From Aeoliella mucimassa (GTDB lineage: Bacteria; Planctomycetota; Planctomycetia; Pirellulales; Lacipirellulaceae), in assembly GCF_007748035.1 (NCBI RefSeq), contig NZ_CP036278.1, forward strand, positions 4,154,001-4,218,000: 64,000 nt of DNA, read 5' to 3'. Below are positions 34,885 through 56,990 of this stretch, piece after piece. The number at the start of each line of letters is the position of its first letter. Within the stretch, counting starts at the first letter, position 1. The position numbers and the translations under genes were made by a program. The notes beneath the pieces are model-generated. The model was given only the letters and a program-made list of their open reading frames with translations. It was not told the DNA's origin and did not search any database.

Positions 34885-34905
34885 CCGGATAGTTACAACT
34901 GAATT

Positions 34906-35143: not shown

Positions 35144-35396
35144 AGCGGGATAGTTTCCCAACACTCACGAATAGATTCCCAATTTTCCCATCGATGGGAA
35201 AATTGAATTAGCGCCCACTCTATGAAACCAGTGGTTTTCGCGCCCGAATAGATTCCCATTCCCAATAACGCATCGAGTGGGAATCTATTTTCGCGCTGGG
35301 AATCAATCGCAAGTCGTTTGTTAGCCATGAGTTGCATCAACACCTCCGCGATAGTCGCCCAAAATAGATTCCCACCCATGGGAAACTATTTTGGGA
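35144..35396 (-). repeat. Hairpin-rich dispersed element, copy B
   Basis: Nearly the same sequence as the element at 56730-56990, in opposite orientation. Read on the minus strand it has an outer palindrome (35358-35395, arms CCCAAAATAG and CTATTTTGGG), then GGAGG and ATG at 35337, a 12-bp stem (35247-35258 with 35278-35289, arms AATAGATTCCCA/TGGGAATCTATT) and a central palindrome (35181-35204, arms AATTTTCCCA/TGGGAAAATT). The motif GGGAATCTATT or its complement occurs four times. A reading frame (MQLMANKRLAIDSQRENRFP...) runs through it without a local stop. Confidence 0.8.
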
Positions 35397-35852
35397 GGAG
35401 ACACGATTGGGGATTTTGGATTGCGGAATGTCATCTTGAAGGAGCTTCCAGCGACTGAAAGATCTCAGCCCGCCACTTCACACGCATTACCAACGCGCAA
35501 GTTGTAGGATGCGGTCCAGGAGCGACAGCGACGCAGCCCCATCACCTGCATTACCAATTCGCGCAGCAGCGAACGCCCACGCAAACAACCCTTCGCAGCG
35601 TGTCGATTCTGTAATTCATTGGAACTCAAAAACTGCTAAACCATTTCACTCTCCAACAACGGACTACTGACTATAAACAACGGACCAAATGCACTGTTCA
35701 TTAGAACACTATCAGTGGCCAATTCCCAGCGAAATCTGGTGAGAATCCAAGCACCAAATTCACCCTCCGCTGGCGGAGGGTCGGGCTATCAGGCCCGGGG
35801 AGGTGGGAAGCGGAGAACGCGCCTTACTGTTTCAAATTCGGCATTTGGCTAG

Positions 35853-35916
35853 CACCGACAGCTGGGCGCACCACGCATTGCCACTCCGCAAAACACACCA
35901 CGCCCAGTTGTCGGTG
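35853..35916. repeat. Inverted repeat with 16-bp arms
   Basis: CACCGACAGCTGGGCG (35853-35868) and CGCCCAGTTGTCGGTG (35901-35916) pair with a single mismatch around a 32-base loop. It is isolated from any gene and resembles intergenic palindromic elements rather than a terminator. Confidence 0.6.
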
Positions 35917-36063
35917 GGCGAAGCCCAAGAGGCTACCCCATCCATGACGATCCGTGTTCATCCGTGGCTGGCATCGTTACCCAGCGTAGGTTTTTGGCTC
36001 GTGGAACTCGCCGAAAACCAACACTGGGCTGATAGACGATTCCCTTTCAGGGAAGAAAGTAGC

Positions 36064-36161
36064 ACGACTCTCCGAGTCGTTGGAATTTGGCATAGCTTTG
36101 CCTGAGGGAACGTTTGTCGATTGGCGAATCTCTCCCCAGGGCTTACGACACGGAGTGTCGT
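36064..36161. repeat. Pair of short palindromes in opposite orientation
   Basis: ACGACTCTCCGAGTCGT (36064-36080) and ACGACACGGAGTGTCGT (36145-36161) each form a 7-bp stem with a 3-base loop. The second is the reverse complement of the first with compensated base changes, and both sit beside a GCACGAC/GTCGTGC extension. Paired base changes in the arms suggest that the structure is maintained. Confidence 0.55.
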
Positions 36162-36518
36162 GCCACATAGGGACGAGTTGACACCACGCACTGTAGCCCA
36201 GGCCCTTGTGGCCTGATTCGGGGGCCGACTTTGAATCGATGCCGTCGATTGCTGTGCGGTCCTACGGCTTCGCCACGCAACCATTTAGCCCACTGCTGGT
36301 AACTGGGTGATGTGGCGGATCATCATCAAGCCGTTGCTACTGCCATCCGATCGCGAAAGGCAGTCCGCGACAAGCCAGCGCTGGCACCCAAAACATGTGT
36401 GGCTAACAGGTCGTGTCCGTCACAACTACGCACAATTATTTTAAGGCATTGCCCTGCCGGTAGGTCCGCTCCCAACACTGTAGCAGCGTAATTGCGGAAG
36501 AGTTGGGGCGGTCGCGGC

Positions 36519-36720
36519 CTACGAGGTCGATCCGCTGGTCTCTTGCAGTCGGTCCATGTCGAGGTACTTCCGCGTGCTCCACTTAGTGCCGGCCATGCGT
36601 CTGAGCCTGGCGGCCACCAGCATCAAGGCACTGTTGCCGTCCGGGAACGCACCCACCACGCGAGTTCGCCGACGGATCTCGATAACGTCCTGACCAGACA
36701 TACGTCGCGGAATCGTTCGT
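36519..36720 (-). pseudogene. C-terminal remnant of an IS256-family transposase
   Basis: On the minus strand, translation reads RRTIPRRMSGQDVIEIRRRT followed by RVVGAFPDGNSALMLVAARL and W..RKYLDMDRLQ. This matches the conserved tail of IS256/mutator-type transposases ('RTrvVGiFPn..SalrLv.a.l....eW..+rYl.m'). The catalytic DDE part is missing and only about 65 residues remain, so it is non-functional. No terminal inverted repeats could be recognised nearby. Confidence 0.75.
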
Positions 36721-36737
36721 CGTCGCAGAGCAAACAT

Positions 36738-36775
36738 AAAACAAGCCCAGGCGTCGCAAGTTCGACGCCTGGGCT
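36738..36775 (-). terminator. Rho-independent terminator of the 264-aa PEP-CTERM gene
   Basis: AGCCCAGGCGTCG and CGACGCCTGGGCT form a perfect 13-bp stem with a 6-base loop, followed on the minus strand by TTGTTTTATG. It starts 30 bases beyond the stop at 36805. Confidence 0.8.
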
Positions 36776-36804
36776 GCTTTGCAATCCCCCGCAATGCGGT
36801 GTAC

Positions 36805-37599
36805 TTATGCCTTACGCTGACGACCCCCAGCCGAAACCAATAGCGCCGTAGCAACAGCAAGCATCGCCAGGCTGGCGGGCTCCGGCACGGGAGACAACCC
36901 CACATCCTCTGCTGCGGTGGCGATCACCAGGTTATCGGCCTGGTTGGTGGTAGTGCCATCCGATCGGAAGTAGAGGAATCCCCACTCGGTATCGATCGGG
37001 CTGTCGGCGAGCGGTACCGTGATCGAATCGTTGGGCGATCCCAACCAGGTATTGTCGTCGAACCACAAACGGTAAGTAATGCTACCGGCCACGGTGGTAT
37101 CGATCTCGGTAATGAGCGTGTGCAGCTGATCGTCGAAGTCGACGCCGGAGTGCAGGATATGGTCAGGCACGCCGCCCACGGAGGTGGCCACTCCGTAATC
37201 GCCTAGACCATTCGGTCCACTTCCCCATGGGTTGCCGATAAACACGGCCTCCGCGTTGTCGGGTTCGTAGATGGTCGCCCCGCCCCACCAGGTACCGAGC
37301 GGCAGCGGATCGGGATTACCCGCGACACTTGTTTGCGTGTAGTCGAACGCCACAAACACCTTGCCGAGGGCAAACGGATCGATCGGGCTCGCAAAGTGCC
37401 GCCCGATGTCGCCAAAGGTAATCACTCCATCCGCAATGGTGCCACTGCCGGACCACTCGCTGTCGGCAACCCAGCCAACACCGCTTCCGGGGGATGGATC
37501 GGAAAAGTCGTCGGACACCAAGACTTCCGCCTGAACCGACGGCGTGAGAGCCATCCATCCAGCGAATAGCAAGGTGGTACTAAGTACGGTTCGAATCAT
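36805..37599 (-). CDS. PEP-CTERM sorting-domain protein
   Basis: 264 aa. Signal peptide about 1-24 (LLFAGWMALTPSVQAE), then a beta-rich domain with the pattern of LamG/concanavalin-like sandwiches (VLVSDDFSDPSPGSGVGWVA; LYFRSDGTTTNQADNLVIA), and a PEP-CTERM tail (PVPEPASLAMLAVATALLVS, then GGRQRKA). No catalytic motif is seen. Likely an exported, surface-retained binding protein. It is followed by a strong terminator. Confidence 0.82.
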   Translation of the reverse strand: MIRTVLSTTLLFAGWMALTPSVQAEVLVSDDFSDPSPGSGVGWVADSEWSGSGTIADGVITFGDIGRHFASPIDPFALGKVFVAFDYTQTSVAGNPDPLPLGTWWGGATIYEPDNAEAVFIGNPWGSGPNGLGDYGVATSVGGVPDHILHSGVDFDDQLHTLITEIDTTVAGSITYRLWFDDNTWLGSPNDSITVPLADSPIDTEWGFLYFRSDGTTTNQADNLVIATAAEDVGLSPVPEPASLAMLAVATALLVSAGGRQRKA

Positions 37600-37984
37600 T
37601 AGTCGCTACCTCCAAAGTTGCAAGAACTCAATAAAAGAAGACACCTCGGGTGACGTAGATCGTCGAGATACAGCACGCAGTTATCAGATTCCCCCGTTGG
37701 TTGCTCGTGGAATCGCTCGCAGACAAGTAAGAGCGATCCGCACCATGGTCGCAAGACAATACCCCTGCAATTGCCTTCGACCAGGTTGCGGAGACGTCGT
37801 CGGTTTCGATGCCCTCTTCGCTCCGTAGAGCCGGGGAACGAAACCACTCCACTCTTTCAACTCTAGTTGCGTACCGTGAACGACTCAATGCAACGCAGCG
37901 CATTAGGCTTATCTTTTTTCGCATCTAGATGCTTCGCGATGCACTTCAGCGCACCAGGAGCGATTCACGACACGCAACTCTCAA
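37600..37984. other. Gene-free stretch, no clear element
   Basis: 385 bases between the PEP-CTERM gene and the second XylR-type regulator, both on the minus strand. It must contain the promoter of the PEP-CTERM gene. I found no convincing hairpin terminator or small gene. Confidence 0.5.
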
Positions 37985-39166
37985 TTACACATTCACCGAA
38001 CGCCCACTCCGCAGCTCGCTAGGGGTGATGCCATAGTACTTGCGGAAGATGCGTGAGAGATAAGGTCCACTGGATAGGCCACACGTTTCGGCAATCGTAG
38101 CAATGCTGAGCGAGGTGGAGACAATCAGTTGGCGAGCCTTCTCGAGTCGCATCCGACGAATCTCTTCGGCCGGCGTTCGGCCGAGTTTATCGCGAAACTT
38201 CTGTTCGAGCGTGCGTCGCGAAACACGAGCCACTTTCACCAGGTCGCGTACTTCGACCCTGTCGGGCGGGCTTTCCCAAATCACTCGCACGCAGCTGGCC
38301 ACGGCCGGGTCGGAGATGTGGCGACTTTCAGTCGAGCGTCGCATGCAAACCCGTAGCGGTTTGACTCGCTGCACGGGTTGCTGCACATCGCGATCCGCCA
38401 GCCGCTGGTCGAGCATGCGACTCGCTTCATGACCGATGCGATGACTTGCCAGCTCGATGCTCGTAATCGGCGGCGATGCCGACTCGCACAACAAGTCGTC
38501 TTCGTCGCCCGAGAGAATGGCGACCTCTTCCGGAATCTCGTAGCCTCGCCAGGCGCAGATCTCCACTAACTGCCGGGCGGGGTAGGGATCGGCTGCAAAC
38601 ACGCCAACCGGTTTTGGCAGGCTATCAATCCACTCCCCTACGTTCTGGCGATCGTCGAGCCAGGTGCTTTGCCGATACCACTTGGTGTTCGTGTAGCAAC
38701 TGCACTGGAACCCTGCCTTACGTACCTCGCTGACGAACGCCTGCTCTCGCTCGATGTTATACCGCCCGATAGCTGGAGCATAGCTGGCAAAGTGCTGAAT
38801 CCGGCGACTCCTCAGGTGGTCGACCGCCATGGTGGCGCGCACCTCGTCGTCGGTCGCGACATGCCCCGCCCAACCTTCGTCGAGGTACATACCAGAAACA
38901 TTGATCGTCGGCACCTCGGCACTCTTCACATGCGCGACCATCGACTTGTCGCGCATCGAAACGATCGCACCATCGGGTTGCCATTGCGGAGGGATGCGCA
39001 AGCGACCTTGCGTATCGCGAGGGGCAATGAGCAATTGCCAGTTCTTGGCGTGAGAGTACTCGGAGACCGCCTGCACGATCCGCCGCCCCCACATGTCGTC
39101 GATATCTACCAATACGGCCACCAATCGACCTGGCGACGGCTCCGGCGGGTGCTCACTCTCACTCAT
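37985..39166 (-). CDS. XylR-type transcriptional regulator (periplasmic-binding-like sensor plus AraC domain)
   Basis: 393 aa from the ATG at 39166 (MSESEHPPEPSPGRLVAVLV). Residues about 15-280 are a sugar-binding-like sensor (VDIDDMWGRRIVQAVSEYSH; LPKPVGVFAADPYPARQLVE; PEEVAILSGDEDDLLCESAS; PPITSIELASHRIGHEASRM). The C-terminal AraC domain carries VRDLVKVARVSRRTLEQKF and SIATIAETCGLSSGPYLSRI. It is paralogous to the regulator at 28382-29545 but clearly diverged. It lies 72 bases downstream of the secreted nitrilase gene on the same strand and upstream of a PEP-CTERM gene. The effector is presumably a sugar, unproven. Confidence 0.88.
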   Translation of the reverse strand: MSESEHPPEPSPGRLVAVLVDIDDMWGRRIVQAVSEYSHAKNWQLLIAPRDTQGRLRIPPQWQPDGAIVSMRDKSMVAHVKSAEVPTINVSGMYLDEGWAGHVATDDEVRATMAVDHLRSRRIQHFASYAPAIGRYNIEREQAFVSEVRKAGFQCSCYTNTKWYRQSTWLDDRQNVGEWIDSLPKPVGVFAADPYPARQLVEICAWRGYEIPEEVAILSGDEDDLLCESASPPITSIELASHRIGHEASRMLDQRLADRDVQQPVQRVKPLRVCMRRSTESRHISDPAVASCVRVIWESPPDRVEVRDLVKVARVSRRTLEQKFRDKLGRTPAEEIRRMRLEKARQLIVSTSLSIATIAETCGLSSGPYLSRIFRKYYGITPSELRSGRSVNV

Positions 39167-39238
39167 CCTGGGTGCCTCATAGTTCCGTTGATCGCCAGCG
39201 TCGTGTTGCACAGGTGTCGTTGCCAGTAGTCGCGTAGA

Positions 39239-40138
39239 CTAGGGATCCACTTTCCGCATCAACTCAAAAGTAATCACTTGCGACTGGCGGTCGGCCAACA
39301 CCAACAGCGAGCGTCCTTCGGCATCGCAGCTGATGCTCTGACCACCATAGGTGTACCCTCGCCAAGGTCCATGGGCGATCTCGCCGACCGAGTTCACTCC
39401 GACCACTGGAGCCCCGATGGTTTTCGCCGCGTGCGATACGGTGCTCGCCAGCGCCCGACCATGTTGAGGCCAGTCAGCAGGCGGCGCTGCCCACCCGTAG
39501 GGAACCAGCACCAGATCAGGTTTTATTTTCTGCATGCGCTGCAAGCAGTCCGCGTCGAACGTATCGGCGCAAATCAACAGCCCGATCTTGCCAAATGGAG
39601 TGTCGACCACCTCCACCCGCTCACCGGCGGTGTAAGGAGGAGTCATCATCTCCTTCAGCACGTTCACCTTCCGATGCTTCAACAGCAACTTGCCATCGCG
39701 ATCGATCAACACTACCGAATCATAAAGCTTGGCACCCGACTTCTCCGCCAGCCCCAAACAGAGCATTAATTCATACTGCTGGGCTAACGCCTGCAAACGA
39801 CTGACGTCGTGCTCCAGCTCGGTGCCCGGTATCGGATGCGCGAGCTGGTGCGAGTTGGGATTCACCCATCCCAGTAGGCATGTTTCGGGAAAACAAGCCA
39901 TGTCGGCCGATTCTCGCTGGGCTTGTTTCAGACAGGCTTCTAACCGCTCGAAGTTACCCTCGCGGTCGTCGTCGACGCACGACAACTGACACATCGCCAC
40001 GCGCAACGCGGCCGGATGCTCAGACTGCTGGGTGGTCGCTGATTCGACCGATGGCTCCTCTTCTGCTTGAGCACGCTGAGCACTTCCCATGGATGCAAAG
40101 GTAAACAACAGCACGAATACGACACCTCGCCTAGCCAT
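39239..40138 (-). CDS. Secreted carbon-nitrogen hydrolase (nitrilase fold)
   Basis: 299 aa from the ATG at 40138; a TTG three codons upstream is less likely. The nitrilase triad is complete: Glu in MACFPETCLLGW, Lys in LLLKHRKVNVLK and Cys in IGLLICADTFDAD. Unlike most nitrilases it begins with a clear signal peptide (MARRGVVFVLLFTFASMGSA, cleavage near residue 25), so it should act outside the cytoplasm as an amidase or nitrilase on an unknown substrate. The next gene on the strand is a XylR-type regulator. Confidence 0.87.
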   Translation of the reverse strand: MARRGVVFVLLFTFASMGSAQRAQAEEEPSVESATTQQSEHPAALRVAMCQLSCVDDDREGNFERLEACLKQAQRESADMACFPETCLLGWVNPNSHQLAHPIPGTELEHDVSRLQALAQQYELMLCLGLAEKSGAKLYDSVVLIDRDGKLLLKHRKVNVLKEMMTPPYTAGERVEVVDTPFGKIGLLICADTFDADCLQRMQKIKPDLVLVPYGWAAPPADWPQHGRALASTVSHAAKTIGAPVVGVNSVGEIAHGPWRGYTYGGQSISCDAEGRSLLVLADRQSQVITFELMRKVDP

Positions 40139-40610
40139 CGGTTCCAACCTTGCGAACGAGAATAGCGATCACTGCTTGAATAACACAGCGCGCAGTAGTC
40201 AATCATGGTCTCCCAGGGGAAACCAACTCTCACGATTCCCAGCATAGATCCAGCAGTCCGGTGCGCAGATAGCTGAAAGCGCATAATCTGGGTAAATTCG
40301 CGCAAGGCCACCAATACCGCTAACTGACAACAATGGCTTGCGGTTAAGAGGCAGGACGCACTCGTTCACTCCAGGGCACATTATCGATTTCGCTCGATCA
40401 CCTCGCATGAAAACAATGTGCGCAACTTTCGTACGATTATGCGCACAAGGAACCGCATCGACTTTACGGTGGATATACTGAGTCTGCTTCGCACGTCGAG
40501 CATTCCCTTCGGTGCGTGCTCAAGGTCGTTACGCCCGCGTGAGTGACGACGCAACCTGTTATGGCAACCAGCTGTTCGCCTGTTTGCCTTGAGGCTGAAA
40601 GGCCCACTTC
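40139..40610. other. Divergent intergenic region with one inverted repeat
   Basis: 472 bases between the nitrilase (minus) and the PLP enzyme (plus). No gene is credible here. It holds TGTGCGCA/TGCGCACA at 40417-40447, a possible operator. The remainder shows no clear structure. Confidence 0.5.
40417..40447. promoter_or_regulatory. Possible operator: TGTGCGCA inverted repeat
   Basis: TGTGCGCA (40417-40424) and TGCGCACA (40440-40447) are perfect 8-bp arms separated by 15 bases, with half-sites about two helical turns apart. It lies 164 bases before the ATG of the PLP enzyme. The spacing suits a dimeric regulator, but no regulator can be assigned. Confidence 0.35.
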
Positions 40611-41744
40611 ATGCAACTGATGCTGTCAGCTCCCGGTACTAGCACTACGATCGACGGAAGATCGTATCTGTACTTTGGCGGCACCGGCTATCTCGGTTTG
40701 CAATGCCACCCGCAAGTGATCGAAGCCGCCTGCGAGGCGACGCGCAGGTGGGGAGTGGGTTCGGCCACGAATCGTGGGGGATGGGGCACGACACCGCCGG
40801 TACAAGAAGTCGAACACCGCGCGGCCCAGTTTTGGCAGTGCGACGACGCCTACTACTTTGCCTCGGGCTACTCGTGCAACCACATCCTGCTGTCGGCTAT
40901 TCACCGGTCGGTCGATATGTTGTTTGTCGACGAGTTTGCTCACTTCAGCATCGAAGATGCGTGCCGATTCTTCCGATTGCCGATAGTCCGCTTTCGACAT
41001 CGCGATGCCATGGCGCTAAGCGAATCGCTGGGCGAACATTTGCCTCCAGGGGCAGTTCCGCTGGTGTTCAGCGATGGTGTCTTCGCCTCGCGGGGTAGTC
41101 TGGCTCCCGTCCAACAGTATCTCGAAGTGTTGCAAGTGTACGACCACGCAGCATTGTGCCTCGACGATTGTCACGCGGTGGGGGTGCTGGGGACACGTGG
41201 TTGGGGAACCTACGAGCACTTTGGTCTCGATACCGCACAGGTGAATGACTTGCCACTTAGCAGCGCTGCTCCGCGACTTTTTGCTACCGGAACCTTGAGC
41301 AAGGCATTCGGTGGGCATGGTGGAATTGTTTACGGCTCCACGCGGTTCATTCACGCCGCGCGCGATGGCAGCGACTACTTCCGCGGCGCCAGCGCCCCAG
41401 CCACTCCAGCAGCGGCCGCCAGCGCGATGGGTCTGCAGCTAGTCACCGAGAATCCCGAGATCGTTTACCGATTACAACGCAACGCGAAGTACCTGAGAGC
41501 GGGCCTCCGCTCACTGGGGCTGGAAGTCGATTCATCGCCTGTCCCTTTCGTCGGCATCACTCTCGGGGATGGAGCAAACATGGCACGCCTGCAGCAGTCG
41601 CTCGCCAGTGATCAGATTCTCGTCGCCCATTCGCGATGCTACTCAGGATTGGATGCCGACGGGGCGCTGCGAATCGCCGTGTTTGCCACCCATACCACGG
41701 AAATGATCGATCAATTGCTCACCGCGCTGGCCAAGCACTTGTAA
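40611..41744 (+). CDS. PLP-dependent alpha-oxoamine-synthase-like enzyme (AONS/KBL family)
   Basis: 377 aa. Fold type I PLP enzyme of the 8-amino-7-oxononanoate synthase / 2-amino-3-ketobutyrate ligase family: YLYFGGTGYLGLQCHPQVIE, then GVGSATNRGGWGTTPPVQEV; LCLDDCHAVGVLGTRGWGTY with the Asp and His contacting PLP; and the Schiff-base Lys in TGTLSKAFGGHGGIVYG. The family joins an amino acid to an acyl-CoA with decarboxylation. The unusual 'GGWGTTP' in place of 'G.RL..G' suggests another substrate, so bioF is not assigned. It is followed after 52 bases by a DUF819 membrane protein, probably in one operon. Confidence 0.85.
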   Translation: MQLMLSAPGTSTTIDGRSYLYFGGTGYLGLQCHPQVIEAACEATRRWGVGSATNRGGWGTTPPVQEVEHRAAQFWQCDDAYYFASGYSCNHILLSAIHRSVDMLFVDEFAHFSIEDACRFFRLPIVRFRHRDAMALSESLGEHLPPGAVPLVFSDGVFASRGSLAPVQQYLEVLQVYDHAALCLDDCHAVGVLGTRGWGTYEHFGLDTAQVNDLPLSSAAPRLFATGTLSKAFGGHGGIVYGSTRFIHAARDGSDYFRGASAPATPAAAASAMGLQLVTENPEIVYRLQRNAKYLRAGLRSLGLEVDSSPVPFVGITLGDGANMARLQQSLASDQILVAHSRCYSGLDADGALRIAVFATHTTEMIDQLLTALAKHL

Positions 41745-41796
41745 AATCATAAATTGCCGACCATTCACGTTATCCACGGAAGCTCTTAAACCTACG

Positions 41797-42993
41797 ATGT
41801 TCAACACTCCCTTGATCCATCCCGATAACACCTGGGCGCTATGGGCCGTAATCGTCACTGGCACCGCGCTTGCGATTTGGCTCGAACAAACCTATCGCTG
41901 GGCGGCGAAGATCAGCGGTCCGTTTATCGCCTTGCTATTGGCGATGCTGCTCTCGAACACCGGAGTGATGCCAACCGAGGCCAAGGCTTATGGCGTTGTG
42001 TCGGATTACCTGGTACCGCTGGCGATTCCATTGCTGCTACTCCGCGCAAACGTGTTTCGCATCGCAAAAGAAACAGGACCCATGTTCATGGCGTTTCATC
42101 TAAGTGTGCTGGGCACGATGCTCGGGGCCGTGTTCGCCACGATGGTGCTTCACAATCAAGTCGAGCAGGTCAGCGAAACGGCTGGCATCATGACAGCCAG
42201 CTATACCGGCGGAGCGGTGAATTTTTTCGCCGTGCGGGAGGCGTTCACGTTAAGCGAAAACTTGGTAAGCCCGCTGCTGGTGGCCGACAACTTCATCATG
42301 GCCGGAGTATTCCTGCTGCTTCTGGCGATCGGCGGCAACGCAACCATGAAGCGCTGGTATGGCCTGAGCGAAGAAGCCACTAGCGACGACAGCAGCGATG
42401 GAACGTCGGCCAGCGTTCACTGGAAACCACAACCGATCAGTCTACTCGACTTGGCCAAATCGTTTGCCATTTCATTGTGTGTAGTGGCCGTCGCCAGCAC
42501 GCTGGGTGGGTGGATTCGTGGAACTTTTCCCGACTCGCTGCTAGGCACCGTGCTTGGCAACGACTTTGTGTTGATCACCTTCCTATCGGTGATCCTGGCC
42601 ACCCTGTTTCGGAGAAGCCTTGAGAAGATCAACGGAGCGAACGAACTCGGCACGTTGATGCTCTACATCTTTCTGTTCGCCATCGGATTGCCAGCCGATC
42701 TGTTAGCGGTGCTTGGCAACGTTCCGATGTTGTTTGTGTTCTGCCTGATCATCGCGGTGACCAACCTATTGGTCACGTTAATCCTGGGGCGGCTGCTGCA
42801 TCTCGACCTGCGAGAACTGTTGGTCTGCGTCAGCGCGACTCTCGGCGGCCCCCCGACTGCCGTAGCCATCGCGATCACCCAAGGCTGGAAGCACCTTATC
42901 GTCCCCGCAACGCTCGTGGGCATCTGGGGTTACGTGATCGGCACGTTCCTCGGTGTGTTTATCGGAGAAACGCTTCTGCGGGTGCTTGGCTAG
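41797..42993 (+). CDS. DUF819-family membrane protein
   Basis: 398 aa with about ten membrane helices. Typical DUF819/YjcL features: AAKISGPFIALLLAMLLSNT, DYLVPLAIPLLLLRANVFRI, ASYTGGAVNFFAVREAF and the C-terminal SATLGGPPTAVAIAITQGWK. Members look like ion- or acid-coupled transporters of the sodium/glutamate-symporter type, but their substrate is unknown. A soluble acidic loop lies near residues 185-205. It is co-oriented with the PLP enzyme upstream and convergent with the GH51-like gene. Confidence 0.88.
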   Translation: MFNTPLIHPDNTWALWAVIVTGTALAIWLEQTYRWAAKISGPFIALLLAMLLSNTGVMPTEAKAYGVVSDYLVPLAIPLLLLRANVFRIAKETGPMFMAFHLSVLGTMLGAVFATMVLHNQVEQVSETAGIMTASYTGGAVNFFAVREAFTLSENLVSPLLVADNFIMAGVFLLLLAIGGNATMKRWYGLSEEATSDDSSDGTSASVHWKPQPISLLDLAKSFAISLCVVAVASTLGGWIRGTFPDSLLGTVLGNDFVLITFLSVILATLFRRSLEKINGANELGTLMLYIFLFAIGLPADLLAVLGNVPMLFVFCLIIAVTNLLVTLILGRLLHLDLRELLVCVSATLGGPPTAVAIAITQGWKHLIVPATLVGIWGYVIGTFLGVFIGETLLRVLG

Positions 42994-43014
42994 CTTCTGC
43001 CTGCTAAACCAGTG

Positions 43015-46882: not shown

Positions 46883-46896
46883 TGAGCATTGCGCGA

Positions 46897-49800
46897 CTAC
46901 ACCGCACGGCGGCGAGCGACGACCAATGCGGCCGTCGCTGCCACCAGCAGGAAGATGGAAGTAGGCTCTGGCACGGCCGCTCCCCCAACAGCGTCGAGAG
47001 AGGCTGCCCAGGTCGCACCAAAATTGCCCTTCCATACGTCGTAGTCGGCGACAGTTACGCCGTCGATGCCATCGCCATTGCCGTTGAGGGCGTCGTCGGT
47101 ATCGGCTCCGAGGTTGTCGCGCCAAACCGTGTAGTCGGCGATGCTCACGACGCCGTCGCCGTTGAAGTCGCCTTCGAGCGGCTGAAGTACAATCGCCAGC
47201 ATACCCTCGGTCAGCAACTCGCTATCGTCCCACACAAGGCCTAATTCCAACGCGGGGAGCATCAAGGTCGGCGAGCCGGAAATCGTGCCCGTAACATTCA
47301 ACAGATTAAACGTGTCGCCCGCCTGTCCCGAGAAGGTATCGAGTAGGTTGACTTCCAACGTACCATCCAAAATCAGATCACCAGTAACCGATAGACTGTC
47401 GTAACTCTCCAGACCATTCATGTCGAAAGCAAGCGTTGCGCCGAGTTGCAGATCGAAGTCTCCATCGACTGTCGCTCGGAAGTTCTGGATCCCATCGGTG
47501 GTGCTTACTGTAACATCGTCGACGGTCCACGCATCGTTGTGCGAGCCAAAACCAATCAGGCCCGTTCCACCGGTTTGCAACGCCGGGTTGGTGAGATTCA
47601 CGGTGTAGTTGCTGGTGCCATCGCTGGCGGTAAACGACACCTCACCTGCTGTGGCGTTGTGTACCAGCGTCACGTCCCACGGAACGTTATTGGCAAAGTT
47701 GCCCGTGGTGCCCGAGGGAACATTCGTCAGTGTTTGCGGAGTATCGTCCACCACTTGGATAATCGAGATTCCGTAACCTTGATTCACCTGGGCGTAGAAG
47801 TAGTTATCCTGATCGACGTAACCAAACACCACCGAAGCATCTGCGTATCCACCGCTCGGATCGCTCTGACCAATGGTCGCCGACACGATATCGACCGCAC
47901 CACTCGCATCAAGCGGTGAGATCGCCATGCTTCCATTGTGGGCGTTGCCGGTGTCCGGGAAGTCGGTATTCGCATTGGTTTGATTGAGCGAAACTGACGA
48001 GCTTACTCCATTCGCACCGCTCATCAGCTCGAAGACCGCGTCGTCGTTGCCGGTTTGCGTTGAAGTAGAAGAGCGGCCATCGATCAACTGCCAACCGCTC
48101 ATCGACGGGGTGTTGGTCACCGCGTTGCCGGTGAACACGACTCCGGTTGCCGGTGGGCCGAAGCCTTCAAAGTCTTCGCCGGTGACCGTGGGAGTGCTGA
48201 GCACGTAACCATCACCACCGATACGGATGGTAGAGCCCGACTTCGCGACGAGATCACCGCCGATGGTGATCACCTGTTTCTGCTCGTTACCAACTTCCAG
48301 GGTCGAACCGCTTTCGGCTGTGATCGATCCGTAGTTGCTATTTGCAATCGCCAGCGTGACCACACCGGTACCGCTGAGAACCACTAGAGCGGTGCCCTTA
48401 ATCGCCTCGCCGGTGATGGTGTAGTTTTTGGTGTTGTTGTTAAAATTGATTTCGCCCGCGTAGACTTCTTGAGCCACGACAACATCGGTTGTTCCGGTGG
48501 CCGAATCGTCGAACGTCACACGATCGAGGTTCATGAACCGGGTGGATCCGCCAGTCCAGTTCGGATCGGCGTTGATGTCCCAGTAGGCACTCGTGCTTCC
48601 TTTCCAAGTCAAGTTGGCCGCCGAACCACTTACCTGCAGATTCACGCTATCGGAATCGGTTGCCATGCTAAGTGCAAACCGGGTGTTGGTGATCAACTCG
48701 CCATCAGCATCGACCAACGTCGGCTCATAGCTAGCAGCCGTAGCCGATCCGTTGAGCGAACCAGCCGCGCGAATCAAGGTATAGGTACCGCTAGCCAAGG
48801 TGCCTTGGGGAGTGATCTGCACTGCGAAACGCCCGGAGCTTCCCAGGGCATCGTTCGCAGTCACGTTGCCCGAGACGTCAATCAGATCGTTCTCGCCATT
48901 GTCGACATCGTGCGAATCGCCAAGCTTGAATTTCAGCGCCCCGGTGGGGGTCGAGCTGTACGTGGTCATCGACAGGTTGCCCGCTACGTCGAGCGTCCCG
49001 ACCTTGTCGCCAGGGGCCAAAATGGCATCGTCGAAGTAGCCGAGATTACCAGTGACCTGCCCTGCCCCGCCGATCGTCTGACCAACCTGCATGTTGTAGA
49101 CGCCGAACGAGGAGACATCCATCGTCGCCGCCTCCGACACATGAATCACTGGGCTGGCGAGTTCGCCGATGTCGCCAGGGCCGGCGACTACTTTCAGTGT
49201 GCCCTCTTCCACCAGTGTGGAGCCGTACCAGAAGTGATCTACAGCGCTCGAAGGACTAGACAAAGTGAGCGTGCCGGTGCCGCGTTTGATGACGTTGATA
49301 TTGTTGTTCGCGTTCGTGTCGGCAATACCATCGGGCGACAGGGTTTGGTCTTCGTTGTTGATGAGGTCGACAAGTTCCCCCAGGTCATCGGCCGCACAGT
49401 CGGAAATGTACCCAGTGATGTTTGTGTTACCAGCACCCGAGAAAATGTAATTCCTCGTGCCTGCGGAATCGCTCGCGGTAAGCACGCCCCCGAGCTGGAG
49501 TGTTTGAGAAGCGACGGCCGATTCGATGGTAACGTCGCCAACATCGCGGATGTAAACGTTGCCATTCCAATTATTGTTGCCTTCGCTCAGCAGATGTGGC
49601 ACCTCGGCTTCTTCGTCTAAACGCGCATCAAACTGCAGAATCTCATCGGCCACGGTGATGTTATTCGTAAGTTTTAGCTGACCTATGTTGCGATCACCTG
49701 GTACGCCGACGTAGGTTCTTGATTCAAAGGTGCCTTGCGTCCCGAACACACCAGTATCGGAGACGACCATGACACCAGCGCTGATGCGATAGACGCCGTC

Positions 49801-51147
49801 GAAGTTCTTCGGCGAATCGAACACAATCACTTCATCCAATAGCGAGTTACTGAGCACAAAGGTGCCATCGCCGGTGATATCGTGATTAAAGGTGCCGGAG
49901 AATCCACCACCGAGTGGCTCACCTTCGTCGTCGAGGAAGCCTTGTGCGACAAACAGAGCGTCGGTTTCTATGTTGAGGTCGTCGTTAATCGAGTTGATAT
50001 TAGTCGCTCGCAAAATACCAGCTTGTACATTGGTAACACCCGTGTAGGTATTGTCGCCTCCCAGGTAGAGATCGCCGCCACCTACTTTATTCAGTCCACT
50101 TGTGCCAGCGATACTGGCGTTGATCGTCGCCTGACCTTCGATCGTCGCTGCTCCGGTAAGAGTAAGCGCGCTGAATCCATCGCTCTCGAGTACGTACTCA
50201 CCATTCGCGGCCTGGAACAGCAGGCCGCCGATCTCGGCATTCGTGTCGACCGTTACCACTCGCTCGTCGGTCACGACGTTTCCAAATAACGCCAGCACTC
50301 CACCGTCGGGTACGACTCCGCCCGACCAGTTTGCCGTGTCGCCATAGTTTCCATCGGCGTCGACCGCCCACTGGATGACCGAAGAAGTCGGCATCGCCAC
50401 GCCAGTGACGTCTTGATAAGCGGATGCACCGGTGCTGAATCGGAAAGCGTCGAGCGCACCAGGACCGGCACCGTAAACAGTGACCCCCATGTCGCTAATG
50501 CCATCGTCTCCGTCCCAGTTACGACCAAGATATGACTCGTCGGGTAGCAATGGATCAATCGCGGTGACGTCGGGATTGTACCACCAAGAGAGTATATCGG
50601 AGCCGCCTGGGTTGAGTTGCAAACGCCCCAGCATCAGGAACGGGCTTGCATCCATGGCATAATCGTTCGCTCCCCCACCAGGTTCGCGAAAGATCTCCAT
50701 CATCGAATCATCCAAGCCCCGCATGAGGAACCGCCCACCGTTGTCCATCGCATCGAACGTAAGACCTGTGCGTGCGGATACCGAACCATTCACACTGCCG
50801 ATGAACGAAAACCAAATGTCGGCATCGCTTGTGGTTGGTGCTGCCAATCCGCGGTAGGCACTCGCTGCTCCTCCTGCGTTTTCAATATGCTGAGCGGTAC
50901 CACTTTGCGAGATGGCATAGTTGGTGGAAGCCGGTGCAATTAGATTGCCTGCGACAACGTTGGTTTCTTCTGTGGTGGCATTGGTGAAGGTTGAGCCATC
51001 GGCCCAACCAGTTCCGCCCCCCTGCCCCGCGAGTACACCCGCTGTGACGTCGTTAAAATCGTGGGTCACTAGTTGTGCATGAGAATTTGATATTAGCGTT
51101 AGGCTTAAGATACAAAGAGCCGCCGTTAGCATCGCTTGCCGTAACAT
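46897..51147 (-). CDS. Large PEP-CTERM protein with autotransporter-type beta-strand repeats
   Basis: 1,416 aa. Signal peptide about 1-25 ([15 protein letters not shown]). An N-terminal lectin-like beta domain (about 26-260: [20 protein letters not shown]), beta-strand repeats (about 260-1,000: [36 protein letters not shown]), a second lectin-like domain (about 1,020-1,240), a dockerin-like pair ([20 protein letters not shown], then [14 protein letters not shown]) and a PEP-CTERM tail ([20 protein letters not shown], then ARRRAV). No catalytic residues are seen. It is likely exported and surface-bound. It is the last of three minus-strand genes with the protein at 51353 and the DUF1559 gene. 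Confidence 0.87.
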
Positions 51148-51352
51148 GGTTCAAGAATCCTCTAGAACAGTAGAAGTTAGAGAAGTAGTGCGATCGCAGA
51201 TAGAAAGTCGTAAGGCAACGAGCGTGATACTCGCTGACCAGTGCAGTTTAGGACGTTTGGAAGAGAGTTAAACATGAGATTAGGTGTTAAGAACCTAACG
51301 ACTTGAACTTACAGTTGCCAGCAGATTCGCGCAAAACAACTGAACAATTGCG

Positions 51353-54300
51353 TCACTCAGCAGCAACACGATGGCGGTTCTTCCATCGGATCATCGCTGG
51401 CAACACAACGGAGACGCTAGCCAACGCCACCGAAGTTGGTTCAGGTGTGGGAGTGGAGTTAGAACTTGTTTGACCACTGGGGTTCGTATCGCCAAAGTGG
51501 TCGCGCCAGATTTGGTAATCGCCGGCATCAATCACTCCGCTCCTGTCTCCATCGGCGCTACTGCCATGGCTAACTCGCATTCCTAACTTGTCCCTCCACA
51601 CGGTGTAGTCGGCCAGATTCACGATACCATCCCCGTTATAGTCCCCTGCCAAGGGGATAGAGACCGAGTAAGTAAACCACGCTGTCGCGTTTGTCGACGT
51701 ATTCGAAGAGATACGCACCCAGTGGGCGGAGTAACCATCGGCAAAACTGTGCACCAACGATTCCCCAGGCTGCACCGTGAGCGTGTCGTACACCGACCAT
51801 TCGTCGGTACCCAGAAAATCGACTTCGATCGTAAACTCCACAGCTGTCGCAGCGTCGTGCGACAGTTCCAACTGTTTCTGGTCATATCCTGCCATCAAGT
51901 ACGGATCGGAGGCCGCGTTCGCTTCGACCGCGGTATCCTTCCATGGTCCACCGACTCCGGCAGGAGCTCCGAACGACCAGAGATCGTCGACGTTGCCAAA
52001 CCAAAGAGCCACCTTTCCATCGTTCGACTGAACGCAGTGCCCCTCAGCAGCCGACTCGGCGGATACGCCGGAGAGTACCAGCATACCTCGCCAGGACATG
52101 AAGTCGAAAATATCGAGGTTGTGCGTCGTTATCGGCACCATGCGGCGGACTCCCCCTCCGGCGAACTCCTTCGGCACTTCGTAGATGGTGCCATGGGCGT
52201 TGAGCAGATTGCGTTCGGTCACCACCTCGCGCATTCCGCGTCGCCAACCGGAGGAAGTTTCGCTGTCGAATATATCGAGCCCCTTCGGTAGTCGGAAACG
52301 CTGCCCTTGATCAGTGAGGATGACCGAGGCCTCGTCGACTTCAAAATCCTGGGTAGTTGCCGCTTCGCTCCGCAGACTTGCTTCGTCCGCCGAGTCGACC
52401 GCCACCAATTCCAACGCAGCGGTCGTTGGGTTCAACTGTGCCTGATAGTATCCGGTGCCGACAATCTGCCCGCTGGCGTCCAATTGGTCGGCGGCAAACT
52501 CCAGTTTGAAGTCGCTGCCTGCCATCGATCGGAGCACTCCCTGCGACCGTGGTTCAGGAACCATCGGATCGGAGAGTCCCGCTGTCAGAGTGGGATTCAG
52601 TTGCCGGGCTGGATTCGCGACATGCAGATAAGCGGTTGCCGAATCGAGGGCTCGATCCGATTTCACTCGCATCCATTGGGCGTCAAGATTCTTTGGCATC
52701 AAGTAATAGCCATAGCTGCCTCGCTGGTCGCCGTTGCCTTCGACAGTCACCTGCTCCAGTGGCTGCCAAGCACCAGTGCCATTAGTGTCGACCTCGACCG
52801 TGAAGGTAACTGCCTCGTCGCTATGGTGCTGGAAGTGGACCACTCGATCGCGAAAGCCACTTATCAGAAACGCATCCGAGGTCTCGTCTGCTGCGACAGC
52901 GTCGTTTACCCAAACACCGCCGAATCCCTTGGGGGGACCGCCATACTGTTCGATTTCGGACTTATCGAGAAACAGGATATTCGAATTTGCCCGCGGCAAT
53001 ATATTGTTGCCCAGCTGAATGGAAGCATCGTTCGCTGCCAGAACGATTTGATCTCCATCCTCTACAAAGTCAACAATCATCTTATGATGCGATGCAATCG
53101 GCTTCACACCTGATGGGTTGGTAGCCGAAAACTCCTCGGGCACGAGGAACAGCATGCCATGATGACTCATGAGATAGCCAGCTTCGAGGCCGACGTCGCG
53201 GATGCGCGGCCACTCGGTGTACCATCCGTTGGGATGCCCATGCGTGTAACTGCTCTTGGGCATGCGAAACTTGGTCCACTCGCCAGTGGATGCATCGCGG
53301 GTGTTGATAAACATCGACTCGTCGTCCCAGCCGGTGGCCCAAATGGTGTCGGTACTGTCGGCCTGCATATCGACCGGCCCCCGCCGACTGGTAACTTCGG
53401 TGTACTGGGCCGAGTCGTCCACAATGGTCCAGGCGGCCAATTGCTCGGCATCCCCTTGGCCGTCCCACTCAACAAGACCGCCCTTGCTGGTGCTATCGCC
53501 ACCGTTGTTGGTAAAAAACAGTCGTCCTTGGCCGGTGTAGAGTCCCTTACCATGCACGCCAGGCAAGTTTTTCTGAATGCTGTTGCCGATGGAGTCGAAA
53601 TTGCCATCGACTCGCAACGTGGTGATCGCAGGCTGAGTCAAGTCGGTAAAGTCGACCTCGTAGAGTCCTTCTTCCATCGTCATGTAATACAACTTGTTCG
53701 GATCATACAGATGAGCGGCGGTGCCGGTGATTCGCCCCACCAAGTCCCCCGCTGCGAGATTAGTCGCTGGCAAGTAGCGAATGGTGTCGCTGGAATCAAT
53801 GTACGCCGCGCCTACGATGTCGATTCCCAAGGAAGAGGAATGGTACCGATTTGCGTCGGTATTGCCGGGGTAGTCGTGATAGGTGGTATGCTCAAGCGTC
53901 GAAAGATCCACCGAGTATAGTTCGTCGGTCCCACCGGCGGTAATGTGGGGGCCGTACGTCATGAACCACAGCTTGTCGTTTCGATTCACGAGCGCTGCAA
54001 CCGCGACCTCGTTGTGGGTGCTGGTTACCGCGGTGTGCGGATAGATGCCGCTATAGGCAACCGGCGAGGTTGGGGTGATGACAGTTGTGTTGTTAGCTAC
54101 CGCTCCTGGCGTGGCGATCACCGACACGTTGTCGATATCGAAACCCACTCCATCCCAGCGATCGTTCAGCGAAAGCGATCGGGCACCGCTGGCATCGGCG
54201 CTGTTTTGAAACACCTTCAGATCCGACAGTACCTGACTACCATCGAGCTGCACTCCCCACGAAGCGGCCCCGGCGACGCCCGACCCCCAGTTTGAACCAG

Positions 54301-54802
54301 TGAGCACAAGATTGTGCCAAACATCAGCTGTAATCGCCGGTAAGTCGAGCGATTGCCAACTACCGTTGTAGGCCTGCCAGGTGTCGTTCCAGTATCGCAG
54401 ATTTAGTGCCGAATCCGTGGGAGTCGGCGAATTGCTGCTACCGTTGACCATCAGATTGAACATGCGCCGGTTGGTCTGCAGTGGATCGATGCGAAAGTCC
54501 ATCGCGATGGTAAAATCGCTGGCTGCGGTTGCCTGGCGGTCCAGATTGAACAGGCTTAGCCCCAGGCCCGCCTCGCTGCCATCGCCGGTGACTCCCTGCA
54601 CTCTTGCGTAGTAATCCGAAGGCCCCGCCCCATCGGCAAGAGACGAAACGACTTCGGTGCCGGTGCCTTCGGTCGTCGCCCACTGACTCGCAAACTGCCC
54701 TGATTCGAACGTATCGTTCAGCACCACGACCTGGGCCATAGAATTCGCGCCACACCAAAATAGAGCGGCACATACTAACCATCGCAACATCGAACCAACC
54801 AT
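51353..54802 (-). CDS. Large PEP-CTERM protein with LamG-like and propeller-like regions
   Basis: 1,149 aa from the ATG at 54802; AAGGTGA lies 7 bases upstream and supports this start over the ATG at 54790. Signal peptide about 1-23 (CAALFWCGANSMAQ). LamG-like domain about 25-230 (VVLNDTFESGQFASQWATTE), then a long region of repeated strand pairs (DKLWFMTYGPHITAGGTDEL; GLYTGQGRLFFTNNGGDSTS; DDESMFINTRDASTGEWTKF; SYLMSHHGMLFLVPEEF-like blocks) that resembles a beta-propeller, a repeated SWRGMLVLSGV-type block near 900, a dockerin-like pair ([20 protein letters not shown]) and PEP-CTERM (PTPEPTSVALASVSVVLPAM). The function is unknown; probably binding or degradation of extracellular material. 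Confidence 0.83.
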   Translation of the reverse strand: MVGSMLRWLVCAALFWCGANSMAQVVVLNDTFESGQFASQWATTEGTGTEVVSSLADGAGPSDYYARVQGVTGDGSEAGLGLSLFNLDRQATAASDFTIAMDFRIDPLQTNRRMFNLMVNGSSNSPTPTDSALNLRYWNDTWQAYNGSWQSLDLPAITADVWHNLVLTGSNWGSGVAGAASWGVQLDGSQVLSDLKVFQNSADASGARSLSLNDRWDGVGFDIDNVSVIATPGAVANNTTVITPTSPVAYSGIYPHTAVTSTHNEVAVAALVNRNDKLWFMTYGPHITAGGTDELYSVDLSTLEHTTYHDYPGNTDANRYHSSSLGIDIVGAAYIDSSDTIRYLPATNLAAGDLVGRITGTAAHLYDPNKLYYMTMEEGLYEVDFTDLTQPAITTLRVDGNFDSIGNSIQKNLPGVHGKGLYTGQGRLFFTNNGGDSTSKGGLVEWDGQGDAEQLAAWTIVDDSAQYTEVTSRRGPVDMQADSTDTIWATGWDDESMFINTRDASTGEWTKFRMPKSSYTHGHPNGWYTEWPRIRDVGLEAGYLMSHHGMLFLVPEEFSATNPSGVKPIASHHKMIVDFVEDGDQIVLAANDASIQLGNNILPRANSNILFLDKSEIEQYGGPPKGFGGVWVNDAVAADETSDAFLISGFRDRVVHFQHHSDEAVTFTVEVDTNGTGAWQPLEQVTVEGNGDQRGSYGYYLMPKNLDAQWMRVKSDRALDSATAYLHVANPARQLNPTLTAGLSDPMVPEPRSQGVLRSMAGSDFKLEFAADQLDASGQIVGTGYYQAQLNPTTAALELVAVDSADEASLRSEAATTQDFEVDEASVILTDQGQRFRLPKGLDIFDSETSSGWRRGMREVVTERNLLNAHGTIYEVPKEFAGGGVRRMVPITTHNLDIFDFMSWRGMLVLSGVSAESAAEGHCVQSNDGKVALWFGNVDDLWSFGAPAGVGGPWKDTAVEANAASDPYLMAGYDQKQLELSHDAATAVEFTIEVDFLGTDEWSVYDTLTVQPGESLVHSFADGYSAHWVRISSNTSTNATAWFTYSVSIPLAGDYNGDGIVNLADYTVWRDKLGMRVSHGSSADGDRSGVIDAGDYQIWRDHFGDTNPSGQTSSNSTPTPEPTSVALASVSVVLPAMIRWKNRHRVAAE

Positions 54803-55017
54803 GAGAAGCTCACCTTAAGAAGCCAAAACGTTCTATACGTCCCCACAAGCATGGTAGGAATCAGGAGCCTTACCCCTCCTCGGGCATAGCAAGTACACAC
54901 CATCCACTGCACGGCAACGAGGCCGCTGTCTGGCTCCGTCGCGTTCACCATGGAACGCGACAGAGCGATTAGCAGTAGTGCTCGACCTACGTCAATCGCT
55001 GACGCTAGTCATGTGTG

Positions 55018-56067
55018 CTAACGCTGAGGTGGGGGTGGAGTCGAGGAACCATTGCAGGGGCGGTCGACCGTTGCGTCGATCACTCCCTGTTCGTCCACTT
55101 CCGACCCATTACGGGTTGCCAGGTTTCGCAACACCCCGAGATCGATCTCTTTCTCGATCAGCGATACACTTCCATCGGCATAAGCAAACTGGGCTCCACC
55201 TGGATGCTCGCTGCCGAAGAACAGGTCATTGAACAAAACCGTTTTGGGAGTGTCACCAGTTTCGTTGGCAACGTAATAACCAACGTCTTGCGGAGTGACG
55301 ATACCGTAGCGAATGTTTTTGGAACCGTGGCTACAAACCTTGGTGAACGCTCCCGGAGCCCCGCTGTAGAAGGCCCCATGGAAGTACGTACGAAGTTGGT
55401 ACGTACGTTCGCCCATGGCCAAGGTCTGGCTGGTGCCATCGGTGATTTCACGTATTTTTACGGTTCCGTAGGGGAAAAACACTCCGTCGGTGTAAACCTG
55501 ACCGCAGTGGCTATTCTCGAGCAACTGAGCAGTGGCTTTGGCTTGGCGGCTGCCATTTTTTTGTAAGCAGTAGCTGTTTCGTCCCGCCCCCATCACCCCG
55601 TAGTAGGTGGAAGTCGACTGCCCCTGGCTCCAGTCTTCGTAGGCTTCCTCGGTTCGGCTAGGACACCAAAACAGTGGAAGCTTGATGGCTGTCAACTGTT
55701 GCGACAGGTTCGAAAGGTGCCCTTCGGCATCCATCTCGTCGTCTACCAATTCGCCTAGCTGCGATTGCTCCACATAGGGTAGCAACTGCACATGCAGGCC
55801 AGAGCTTTGGTCTTCCGAGGTTCGCGCCAGCGTTGCGGATGTGGGAAACTCTCCCATCGCGGTGTGGTAGTTATGCGCTGCCAGCATCATGTTCTTAAGA
55901 TTGTTGCTGCACGTCATCCGACGAGCTGCTTCTCGGGCTGCCTGCACCGCCGGCAAGAGCAAGGCAACCAAGATTCCGATGATGGCGATAACCACCAACA
56001 ACTCAACCAACGTAAAGCCATTGAATGTCGACCTTGTCGACTTCCTTCCACCGAGAAAAGTCATCAT
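55018..56067 (-). CDS. DUF1559 pseudopilin-like protein
   Basis: 349 aa from the ATG at 56067, with GGGAG five bases upstream. N-terminal type IV pilin-like methylation/cleavage motif and helix (STFNGFTLVELLVVIAIIGI), followed by VALLLPAVQAAREAARRMTC and SNNLKNMMLAAHNYH, and the C-terminal DUF1559 tail (GSEHPGGAQFAYADGSVSLI; LRNLATRNGSEVD). This family is greatly expanded in planctomycetes and thought to be processed by prepilin peptidase and assembled outside the cell; its exact role is unknown. It may be the first gene of a minus-strand unit with the two large PEP-CTERM genes. Confidence 0.93.
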   Translation of the reverse strand: MMTFLGGRKSTRSTFNGFTLVELLVVIAIIGILVALLLPAVQAAREAARRMTCSNNLKNMMLAAHNYHTAMGEFPTSATLARTSEDQSSGLHVQLLPYVEQSQLGELVDDEMDAEGHLSNLSQQLTAIKLPLFWCPSRTEEAYEDWSQGQSTSTYYGVMGAGRNSYCLQKNGSRQAKATAQLLENSHCGQVYTDGVFFPYGTVKIREITDGTSQTLAMGERTYQLRTYFHGAFYSGAPGAFTKVCSHGSKNIRYGIVTPQDVGYYVANETGDTPKTVLFNDLFFGSEHPGGAQFAYADGSVSLIEKEIDLGVLRNLATRNGSEVDEQGVIDATVDRPCNGSSTPPPPQR

Positions 56068-56729
56068 GGAACTCCCAAGAAAAGAATGGGGATAACCTCG
56101 CACGCCCTCGACCGCGTGCGCGGCCTGCCGAGCCCCATCGCTAAGCTCCTAGCGATGGCCGAATCTTACCGCTTTGCGTTTTTCGAAGCCAGCGGATATT
56201 GCGAAAAAAACCTGCACTATCGCGACACGCTGGTGCGTTCCTACAAGAGCACAAAGTCTCCTTTGCGTCGCCGTTTCAAGACTCCCTAATCCGCACATTC
56301 CATCTTCACCTTCCACGGAGTTCGACAATCTTCCAACGGACACTATTCACAAAACAGATGCAGTTGCGTCGCTCGATAACCTACCTGAAACTCACCGCTT
56401 GAACGCGAGTAATGGTGATTGGTGGCAAGCCCTGTAAGCTGGGTAAAGGCCTGTCCTCCGACCGCAAGCTAACGGACGCCTGTTTTCTCTGATCGACTGT
56501 TTTTTGATGGAAAGTGGCCACCCATGGTGTTCTAATGGACATGTAACACAGTTTGTCGGCTGTCGGCTTATTGAGTGATAGGAGAACGCGTTAGGTAAGG
56601 CTTTACACTGGGACCGAACAACTAGCGACACGCTGGCGAATGAGTGCTTGCGTGGGCGTTGACTGCTGCGCGCACGCCTAACCGGTCGTGGGATAGCGTC
56701 CTCCCCAACTCCCAACTCCCAACTACCAA
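56068..56729. other. Gene-free stretch
   Basis: About 660 bases upstream of the DUF1559 gene, before the hairpin-rich element. Short frames on both strands have no family resemblance or ribosome-binding site. A CCCAACTCCCAACT-type short direct repeat lies at about 56704-56725. Nothing else recognisable. Confidence 0.5.
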
Positions 56730-56990
56730 CCAAAATAGATTCCCACCGATGGGAAACTATTTTGGGCACTTTCCTTGGAGGTGTTGATGCAACTTACTGC
56801 TGGCAAAAGACTTGCGATAAGTGCGCAGCGGGAAAATAGATTCCCACTCGATGCGTTTTGGGAAATGGGAATCTATTCGAGGCTGAAAACCACTGGTTTT
56901 GTAGCGTGCGTGCAGATTCAATTTTCCCATCGGTGGGAAAATTGGGAATCTATTCGTGAGCGGTGGGAATCTATTTCGCCCGTGGGACTC
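56730..56990 (+). repeat. Hairpin-rich dispersed element, copy A
   Basis: Second copy of the element at 35144-35396, in inverse orientation. It has an outer palindrome (56730-56766, arms CCAAAATAG and CTATTTTGG), GGAGGTGTTG before ATG at 56787, a perfect 12-bp stem (56835-56846 with 56866-56877), a 10-bp palindrome (56920-56929 with 56934-56943) and a direct repeat of GGGAATCTATT (56944-56954, 56963-56973). The two copies differ by scattered substitutions but not by any indel across the internal reading frame. Confidence 0.8.

Follow-up and report, generated by a model that had tools for sequence, protein, structure and literature searches.

The 64,000-nucleotide stretch of the Aeoliella mucimassa chromosome that was analyzed here (the window; positions 4154001 to 4218000 of a single 6,608,792-bp contig, with a G+C content of 58.4%) carries a hairpin-rich unit twice, which raises the question of what kind of sequence this unit represents. 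A preliminary description had offered a non-autonomous mobile element, a structured RNA, or a small-protein family as possible answers. Both copies were found where it had placed them, at 35144 to 35396 on the minus strand and at 56730 to 56990 on the plus strand, in opposite orientations. Aligned over 245 bp, their core units match at 83.7%, and 39 of the 225 core positions differ between them, two of these 39 being columns that are constrained across the family. The repeated motif is the 12-bp word TGGGAATCTATT, which, with up to one mismatch allowed, is present at 11 sites in the window, always within the two copies, against 0.13 occurrences expected from shuffled sequences. The stems are equally real, the 149-nt parts of both cores giving z scores of −4.9 and −6.0 as single-stranded DNA (DNA parameters) against dinucleotide shuffles; the GGAGG ahead of an ATG is present as well, and the shared frame aligns between the two copies with no indel. 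On balance, and with moderate confidence, the unit is best explained as part of a composite, interspersed DNA element that is non-coding, specific to this genome, and REPIN-like in its working, and that evolves as a recombining intragenomic population.

The unit of about 255 bp is indeed a repeated element, as first described, but it is not the whole of it: it forms the 3′ core of a longer intergenic element of about 0.56 kb. Within the window, the minus-strand element extends from about 35735 down to 35151, and the plus-strand element from about 56500 to 56975. The minus-strand copy (locus L031) is composed of a 5′ end with a 5′ box at 35697 to 35735 (TTTCGCTGGGAATTGGCCAC... to ...TCTAATGAACA), identified by matches to the box pattern; a middle at 35397 to 35696, where homology to other copies, together with a heptad autocorrelation computed across all copies that carry a 5′ box, reveals mosaic modules with degenerate heptad tracts; a 225-bp core with five word sites at 35172 to 35396, delimited by the core alignment; and a tail at 35151 to 35171, in which the tail-word scan retrieved one further word, TGGGAAACTATC. 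The plus-strand copy shows, by the same evidence, a 5′ end and 5′ box at 56500 to 56541, a middle of mosaic modules with homology to other copies at 56542 to 56703, and a 225-bp core with five word sites at 56730 to 56954; between middle and core lies a heptad linker at 56704 to 56729, which Tandem Repeats Finder reports as about 3.9 copies of CCCAACT (array 56704 to 56730). Word searches place site 1 of this core at 56734 to 56745 on the minus strand and site 2 (TGGGAAACTATT) at 56750 to 56761 on the plus strand, the two forming the outer palindrome, whose arms are here in a flipped arrangement that is seen in 1 of 100 copies. Site 3 (56835 to 56846, minus strand) is followed by site 4 (56866 to 56877, plus strand), inverted relative to it, and site 5 (56943 to 56954, plus strand) marks the 3′ edge of the core. 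A tail word at 56964 to 56975 on the plus strand, 21 bp past site 5, was found both by the word search and by the tail-word scan.

Searches of the whole genome for further copies showed that the unit is dispersed. The core motif GGAGGTGTTGATGCAAC has 115 matches at up to two mismatches (control, 1), the 5′ box TGGCCAC-N5-GTGTTCTAATGGACA has 132 at up to three mismatches (reversed control, 0), and the exact word occurs 586 times over both strands (control, 0). The set studied here consists of 101 unique copies, 100 of them listed among the 115 core-motif matches and one found separately; 14 or 15 core-motif matches lie outside this set, at least one of which (L190) was examined later. A 37-bp match in a relative (L060) was excluded from all counts, L099, whose core ends at column 117, was removed before the alignment of 100 copies, and L094 was removed before the counts on 99. 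Twenty further regions outside the listed cores were picked because they contain a word or a 5′ box. Seven of them (L174, L175, L181, L184, L186, L187, and L190) are diverged members that align over at least 219 bp at 75 to 89%, and the other 13 gave partial matches, mostly at word palindromes.

Outside this genome the family was not encountered in the collections searched. BLAST with one core against another 58 genomes from the order, including three of the same genus, returned the single 37-bp match and nothing else; a profile built from 48 of the 101 cores had no match in the same 58 genomes among up to 38 candidates scored per genome under stricter filters; and the word itself occurs 0 to 4 times per genome in these relatives. 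A wider contig search returned nothing with a first pattern and, with a second, single palindromes in Peptoniphilus and Dyadobacter that were taken as unrelated. No match to the element was present in viral contigs or in plasmid and phage collections, and the family is undescribed in titles and abstract openings on planctomycete, heptamer, small dispersed, and REPIN-type repeats and on linkage equilibrium among interspersed repeats, drawn mostly from outside the subscription journals. The initial impression that no described family is recognizable thus holds for Rfam and for the plasmid and phage collections, although repeats of the REPIN/BIME type are the nearest kind.

Homology between copies stops sharply to the right of the core and is ragged on the left, where about a quarter of the copies are still similar to at least five others at position −500. 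In 90 of the 101 copies, a looser version of the 5′ box precedes the core by 220 to 462 bp (the match in L101 is doubtful, as homology there begins at −138), and the length from 20 bp ahead of this box to the end of the core ranges from 470 to 712 bp, with a median of 556 bp (90 copies). Alternative modules make up the middle of the element as a mosaic that includes degenerate heptad tracts; in the two tracts, the autocorrelation reaches 0.50 and 0.52 at lag 7 and 0.45 and 0.48 at lag 14, compared with about 0.25 in the flanks. Word sites 2, 3, and 4 are each exact in 96 of 100 copies and site 5 in 84, and site 1 is a variant that reads AATAGTTTCCCA in 63 copies and AATACTTTCCCA in 22. The spacer between sites 3 and 4 is free of indels in all 100 aligned copies, one deletion being located inside site 4. 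The tail contains up to four additional word-like sites, and 82 of its 84 spacings are 20 to 22 bp long, with one of 19 bp and one of 68 bp. The two ends of the element differ in sequence. Among 99 copies, the outer hairpin has a 4-base loop that reads CCCA in 40 and TGGG, the exact inversion, in another 40.

Variation is distributed very unevenly over the core. Among the 225 columns, 126 show deviations in no more than two of 99 copies, and another 63 are free to vary, with an average of 30% of copies deviating. Columns 1 to 225 of 100 cores contain three indels, an insertion of one base and deletions of one and of two bases, and six copies carry an extra base at the left edge of the core. 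At 125 constrained columns, 54 of 100 cores show no deviation and 32 show one. This proportion of copies without deviation exceeds what free decay would leave if the free columns are taken as a clock, which under conversion they are not cleanly; free decay is unlikely, since it would strike the constrained columns as well. The closest pair among 99 cores still differs at 13 of 225 positions, and because no two cores are closer than this, a recent burst can be rejected. The suggestion of a non-autonomous repeated element therefore stands as to kind, with 115 core-motif matches and no called host gene overlapping any of the 101 copies, but not as to recent expansion.

The free positions of the core are close to linkage equilibrium. 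Averaged over pairs of variable columns, the excess mutual information is 0.31 at a distance of 1 bp, drops to 0.011 by 13 to 25 bp, and lies at 0.0015 to 0.003 farther out. Some association persists among 231 pairs of chosen markers, of which 32 reach p<0.05 and 15 reach p<0.01; these include upstream modules paired with core columns. The mean nearest-neighbor distance of 19.27 (96 copies, L017, L093, and L098 being left out in addition to L060, L099, and L094) compares with 20.1, 19.4, 19.3, and 19.2 in block-shuffle nulls with 29, 17, 7, and 5 blocks, at 12 shuffles per setting. Pairwise distances vary more than in these nulls (46 against 31 to 39), which indicates that some kinship remains among the copies. 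The longest identical tract inside the core, 131 bp, is not clearly beyond the nulls (77 to 134 bp). Saturation on a star-like tree could also produce such near equilibrium.

Longer exact tracts appear when the upstream part of the element is included. Copies L014 and L104 are identical over 448 bp (−409 to +38), with fully different sequence outside the element and 27 differences across the remaining core and tail; L010 and L105 share 187 identical bp with divergence on either side, and L023 and L048 share 147. Where the flanks of two copies differ, an exact tract common to both is most readily interpreted as the product of ectopic gene conversion, a mechanism suggested here by sequence comparison. 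The tract in L014 and L104 may alternatively mark a new copy assembled from two parents; among the aligned copies no donor was found for the rest of either core, the nearest others presenting at least 15 differences. Far upstream of some cores there are further long exact tracts, for example, 712 bp in L066 and L103. Three members (L118, L189, and L191) apparently miss just the DNA between two like words, so that the words also act as deletion end points.

In the favored reading of a REPIN-like recombining population, the words, arranged as inverted pairs at fixed distances, would be the functional part of the element and would most likely be bound by a sequence-specific host protein. The copies, presumably multiplied by some copying step, would trade segments by ectopic gene conversion, as the exact shared tracts suggest, and conversion would shuffle the free positions to near linkage equilibrium. 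Selection would keep the words and their spacing, probably more for recognition and upkeep as an element than for a task of each copy. Among the loci examined, no transposase or binding protein tied to the words was found. Constraint alone does not separate mobility from host function.

REPINs are REP doublets mobilized by RAYTs and, in those parts of the published accounts that are drawn on here, are described as sequence populations inside one genome (PMC3116915, PMC8049555). The element resembles REPINs as these parts present them in being intergenic and dispersed, in its invariant inverted words, in the length-constrained, hairpin-forming spacer, and in forming an intragenomic population (PMC3116915, PMC8049555). 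It differs from them in its size of about 0.56 kb, in having at least five words in each copy along with heptad linkers and a 5′ box, and in the near linkage equilibrium of its free positions, with exact shared tracts. It is called REPIN-like in working, and not a REPIN, because no RAYT is tied to the words and two-sided changes of paired bases are not clearly beyond chance. Besides the nine IS200 copies, the genome has four Y1_Tnp transposase loci; three lack the word (at up to one mismatch) within 6.5 to 7 kb, and a copy of the element lies about 2 kb from the fourth. The GTAG/CGTC-tagged REPs and BIMEs are, in the portion of the source cited, palindromic intergenic repeats reported also in Planctomycetes (PMC3733652). 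The element contains a GTAG 3′ of the AAAACC/GGTTTT core stem in 64 of 99 copies, with mostly ATAG or GCAG in the others. This GTAG recalls the tagged REPs as that portion describes them (PMC3733652), yet it sits 3′ of a minor stem, away from the word stems, and the consensus has neither GTAG nor CGTC beside the latter. Unlike these repeats, the element reuses one word in several stems at fixed spacing.

A possible but tentative alternative is that each copy serves the host, its words binding a nucleoid or chromosome-organizing protein and being kept by purifying selection in place. The 54 cores without and 32 with one constrained-column deviation argue for it, given that even the closest pair is separated by at least 13 differences, as do the 100 listed positions, which are spaced a little more regularly than chance would give (coefficient of variation, 0.78), and the persistence of words and word pairs in strongly diverged members. 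The diverged regions were, however, mostly chosen for holding a word, which biases this comparison toward word retention. Absence from the three same-genus genomes searched speaks against a host role, and so does the tolerance of insertion sequences (ISs), 10 of the 101 copies being interrupted upstream of the core and one inside it. Neighbor orientation also shows no preference: right neighbors comprise 57 on the plus and 44 on the minus strand, and left neighbors 33 and 31, with 37 of 101 left uncalled by the home-made codon-usage caller from which the gene calls derive. Since no called host gene overlaps a copy and no orientation is clearly preferred, a leader or terminator role is disfavored.

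A related view, to which low confidence is likewise attached, holds that the family consists of more than 130 putative compound binding arrays that in-place selection keeps word-perfect, with conversion holding the copies near linkage equilibrium. If true, regulatory or architectural sites would here form a sexual population within one bacterial chromosome, in one species so far. The usual view of a bacterial repeat family is one of mobile-element copies in decay; here, about a hundred copies have words that are nearly perfect and share long exact tracts, and their cores display almost no genealogy. The cause of repeat conservation, be it mobility, host function, or conversion, thereby becomes testable in one genome.

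That the unit is a structured non-coding RNA expressed from each copy, as had been considered, is unlikely. The stems are strong, as the z scores above indicate, and the conserved GGAGGTG motifs might meet ribosomes or an anti-SD sequence. In the compensatory-change test on 48 cores, however, 27 of the 48 named pairs never vary and three pairs are changed on both sides versus 1.2 in shuffles, a number that 35 of 500 shuffles reach and that is thus not clearly above chance; RNAalifold, applied to both strands, returned stems made mostly of invariant columns. The stems are maintained by invariant arms, with no clear sign of compensatory change, and the reuse of one word in several of them suggests that the sequence is recognized rather than the fold. 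Rfam gave no match, either for the whole window at the gathering score or for L004, L016, and L031 at E values up to 1, and a scan of 56400 to 57150 for promoters of the sigma-70-like type alone gave no site. Two terminator-like predictions in the same interval fall on the outer palindrome, compared with 1.1 in shuffles. The absence of an orientation preference relative to called neighbors also counts against an expressed RNA.

Still less probable is a recently expanded MITE of a resident IS. Copies of IS200, IS110, and IS5 do sit within element copies: 11 of 101 copies are interrupted, five by an IS110-like, five by an IS5-like, and one by an IS200-like sequence, an assignment that rests on a scan of one protein of each kind, with the IS110-like protein of L077 classed by eye. 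The nine gene calls that overlap element copies are all IS transposases. The 10 IS110-like and IS5-like insertions lie upstream of the core, with the 5′ box located beyond the IS in at least six, and the IS200-like insertion lies inside the core. These ISs nevertheless carry their own ends and share exact tracts of more than 1 kb with one another; near-identical core pairs are absent among the 99 cores, and no autonomous version of the element was found among the copies examined. A reverse transcriptase as the motor was also rejected, the four such loci in the genome having no exact word, 5′ box, or core motif within 3.5 to 3.6 kb.

The small-protein family proposed at first for the shared frame (73 amino acids at 56787 to 57008 on the plus strand, with its ATG inside the core) is scarcely credible and the frame was judged not to be a gene, for although it has an SD-like motif, keeps its ATG in 97 of 100 copies, and is stop-free in 79, with 33 single-step stop changes against 87 expected under an even spread that disregards the invariant columns, it contains an in-frame stop in 21 copies (13 of which read ATG-TAA, with the stop at codon 2), shows no codon-position bias (diversity of 0.149, 0.139, and 0.134 at positions 1, 2, and 3) and no clear synonymous excess (423 synonymous changes against 374 expected and 1173 non-synonymous against 1168), and is matched by an antisense register equally open, with stops in 16 and none in 84 of 100 copies. 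In some copies the frame reaches 564 amino acids by running into flanking DNA. A minus-strand open reading frame of 1060 amino acids that begins in the copy at 35379 was taken as the shadow of a 1732-amino-acid plus-strand frame at 29686 to 34884.

The heptad linkers of the element have counterparts elsewhere. Cyanobacterial STRRs are intergenic heptameric repeats, and the small dispersed repeats of cyanobacteria that Elhai reportedly described in 2008, about 24 nt long, are said to lie among heptad tracts; the element shares the heptad tracts with the latter but is a long composite. The TAACTGA heptameric repeats form, in the part of the source referred to here, intergenic tracts with a 7-bp period (PMC4679880). 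The period is common to these, to STRRs, and to the element, in which degenerate heptads, of a type that varies from copy to copy, serve as linkers of a larger unit. Tracts that look like the linkers are also present across many genomes from the bacterial family, which hints at a further unexplained process.

All nine IS200-like copies (L117 to L122 and L169 to L171) are directly preceded by TCTATT or TCTTTT, and in five of the nine the insertion comes immediately after the element's word TGGGAATCTATT; this word is therefore a favoured insertion site of the IS200-like family. Insertions of the IS110 family also occur in element copies. Four of these (L021, L033, L034, and L089) have in common the right junction CTACT, located in a middle module; L077, the fifth such insertion, is paralogous to them and lies in the opposite orientation. 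The NCBIfam name of the family, obtained for the one protein of this kind that was scanned, describes it as RNA-guided, and the target RNA of these insertions may therefore match this module of the element.

Core columns 172 to 175 (e.g., window positions 56901 to 56904) read GTAG in 64 of 99 copies and otherwise mostly ATAG or GCAG. The position of this site directly 3' of the AAAACC/GGTTTT stem is reminiscent of GTAG-tagged REPs. The genome contains four reverse-transcriptase genes (L113 to L116), and neither the word nor the 5' box nor the core motif turned up in the stretches fetched around them.

Two element copies, L062 and L099, share exact upstream tracts of 330, 291, and 140 bp, and the core of L099 ends at column 117. 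The pair perhaps represents a larger duplication accompanied by loss of the right half. On the minus strand, an open frame of 1,060 amino acids (window 32197 to 35379) starts inside the element; it runs antisense to a plus frame of 1,732 amino acids (29686 to 34884) and is probably a shadow frame.

The heptad tracts are a "dialect" spread across the bacterial family. With at most 12 candidates scored per genome, the tracts of one element copy found matches in 20 of the 35 other same-family genomes and in none of the 23 genomes from other families of the order. Among the matches L199 to L205, L199 and L203 apparently adjoin ribosomal-protein genes, as judged by eye. One relative (G017) has its own palindromic repeat family, TAGCCGC...GCGGCTA (L146, L157, L161, and L162; 400 kb sampled), and heptad tracts are found inside these repeats.
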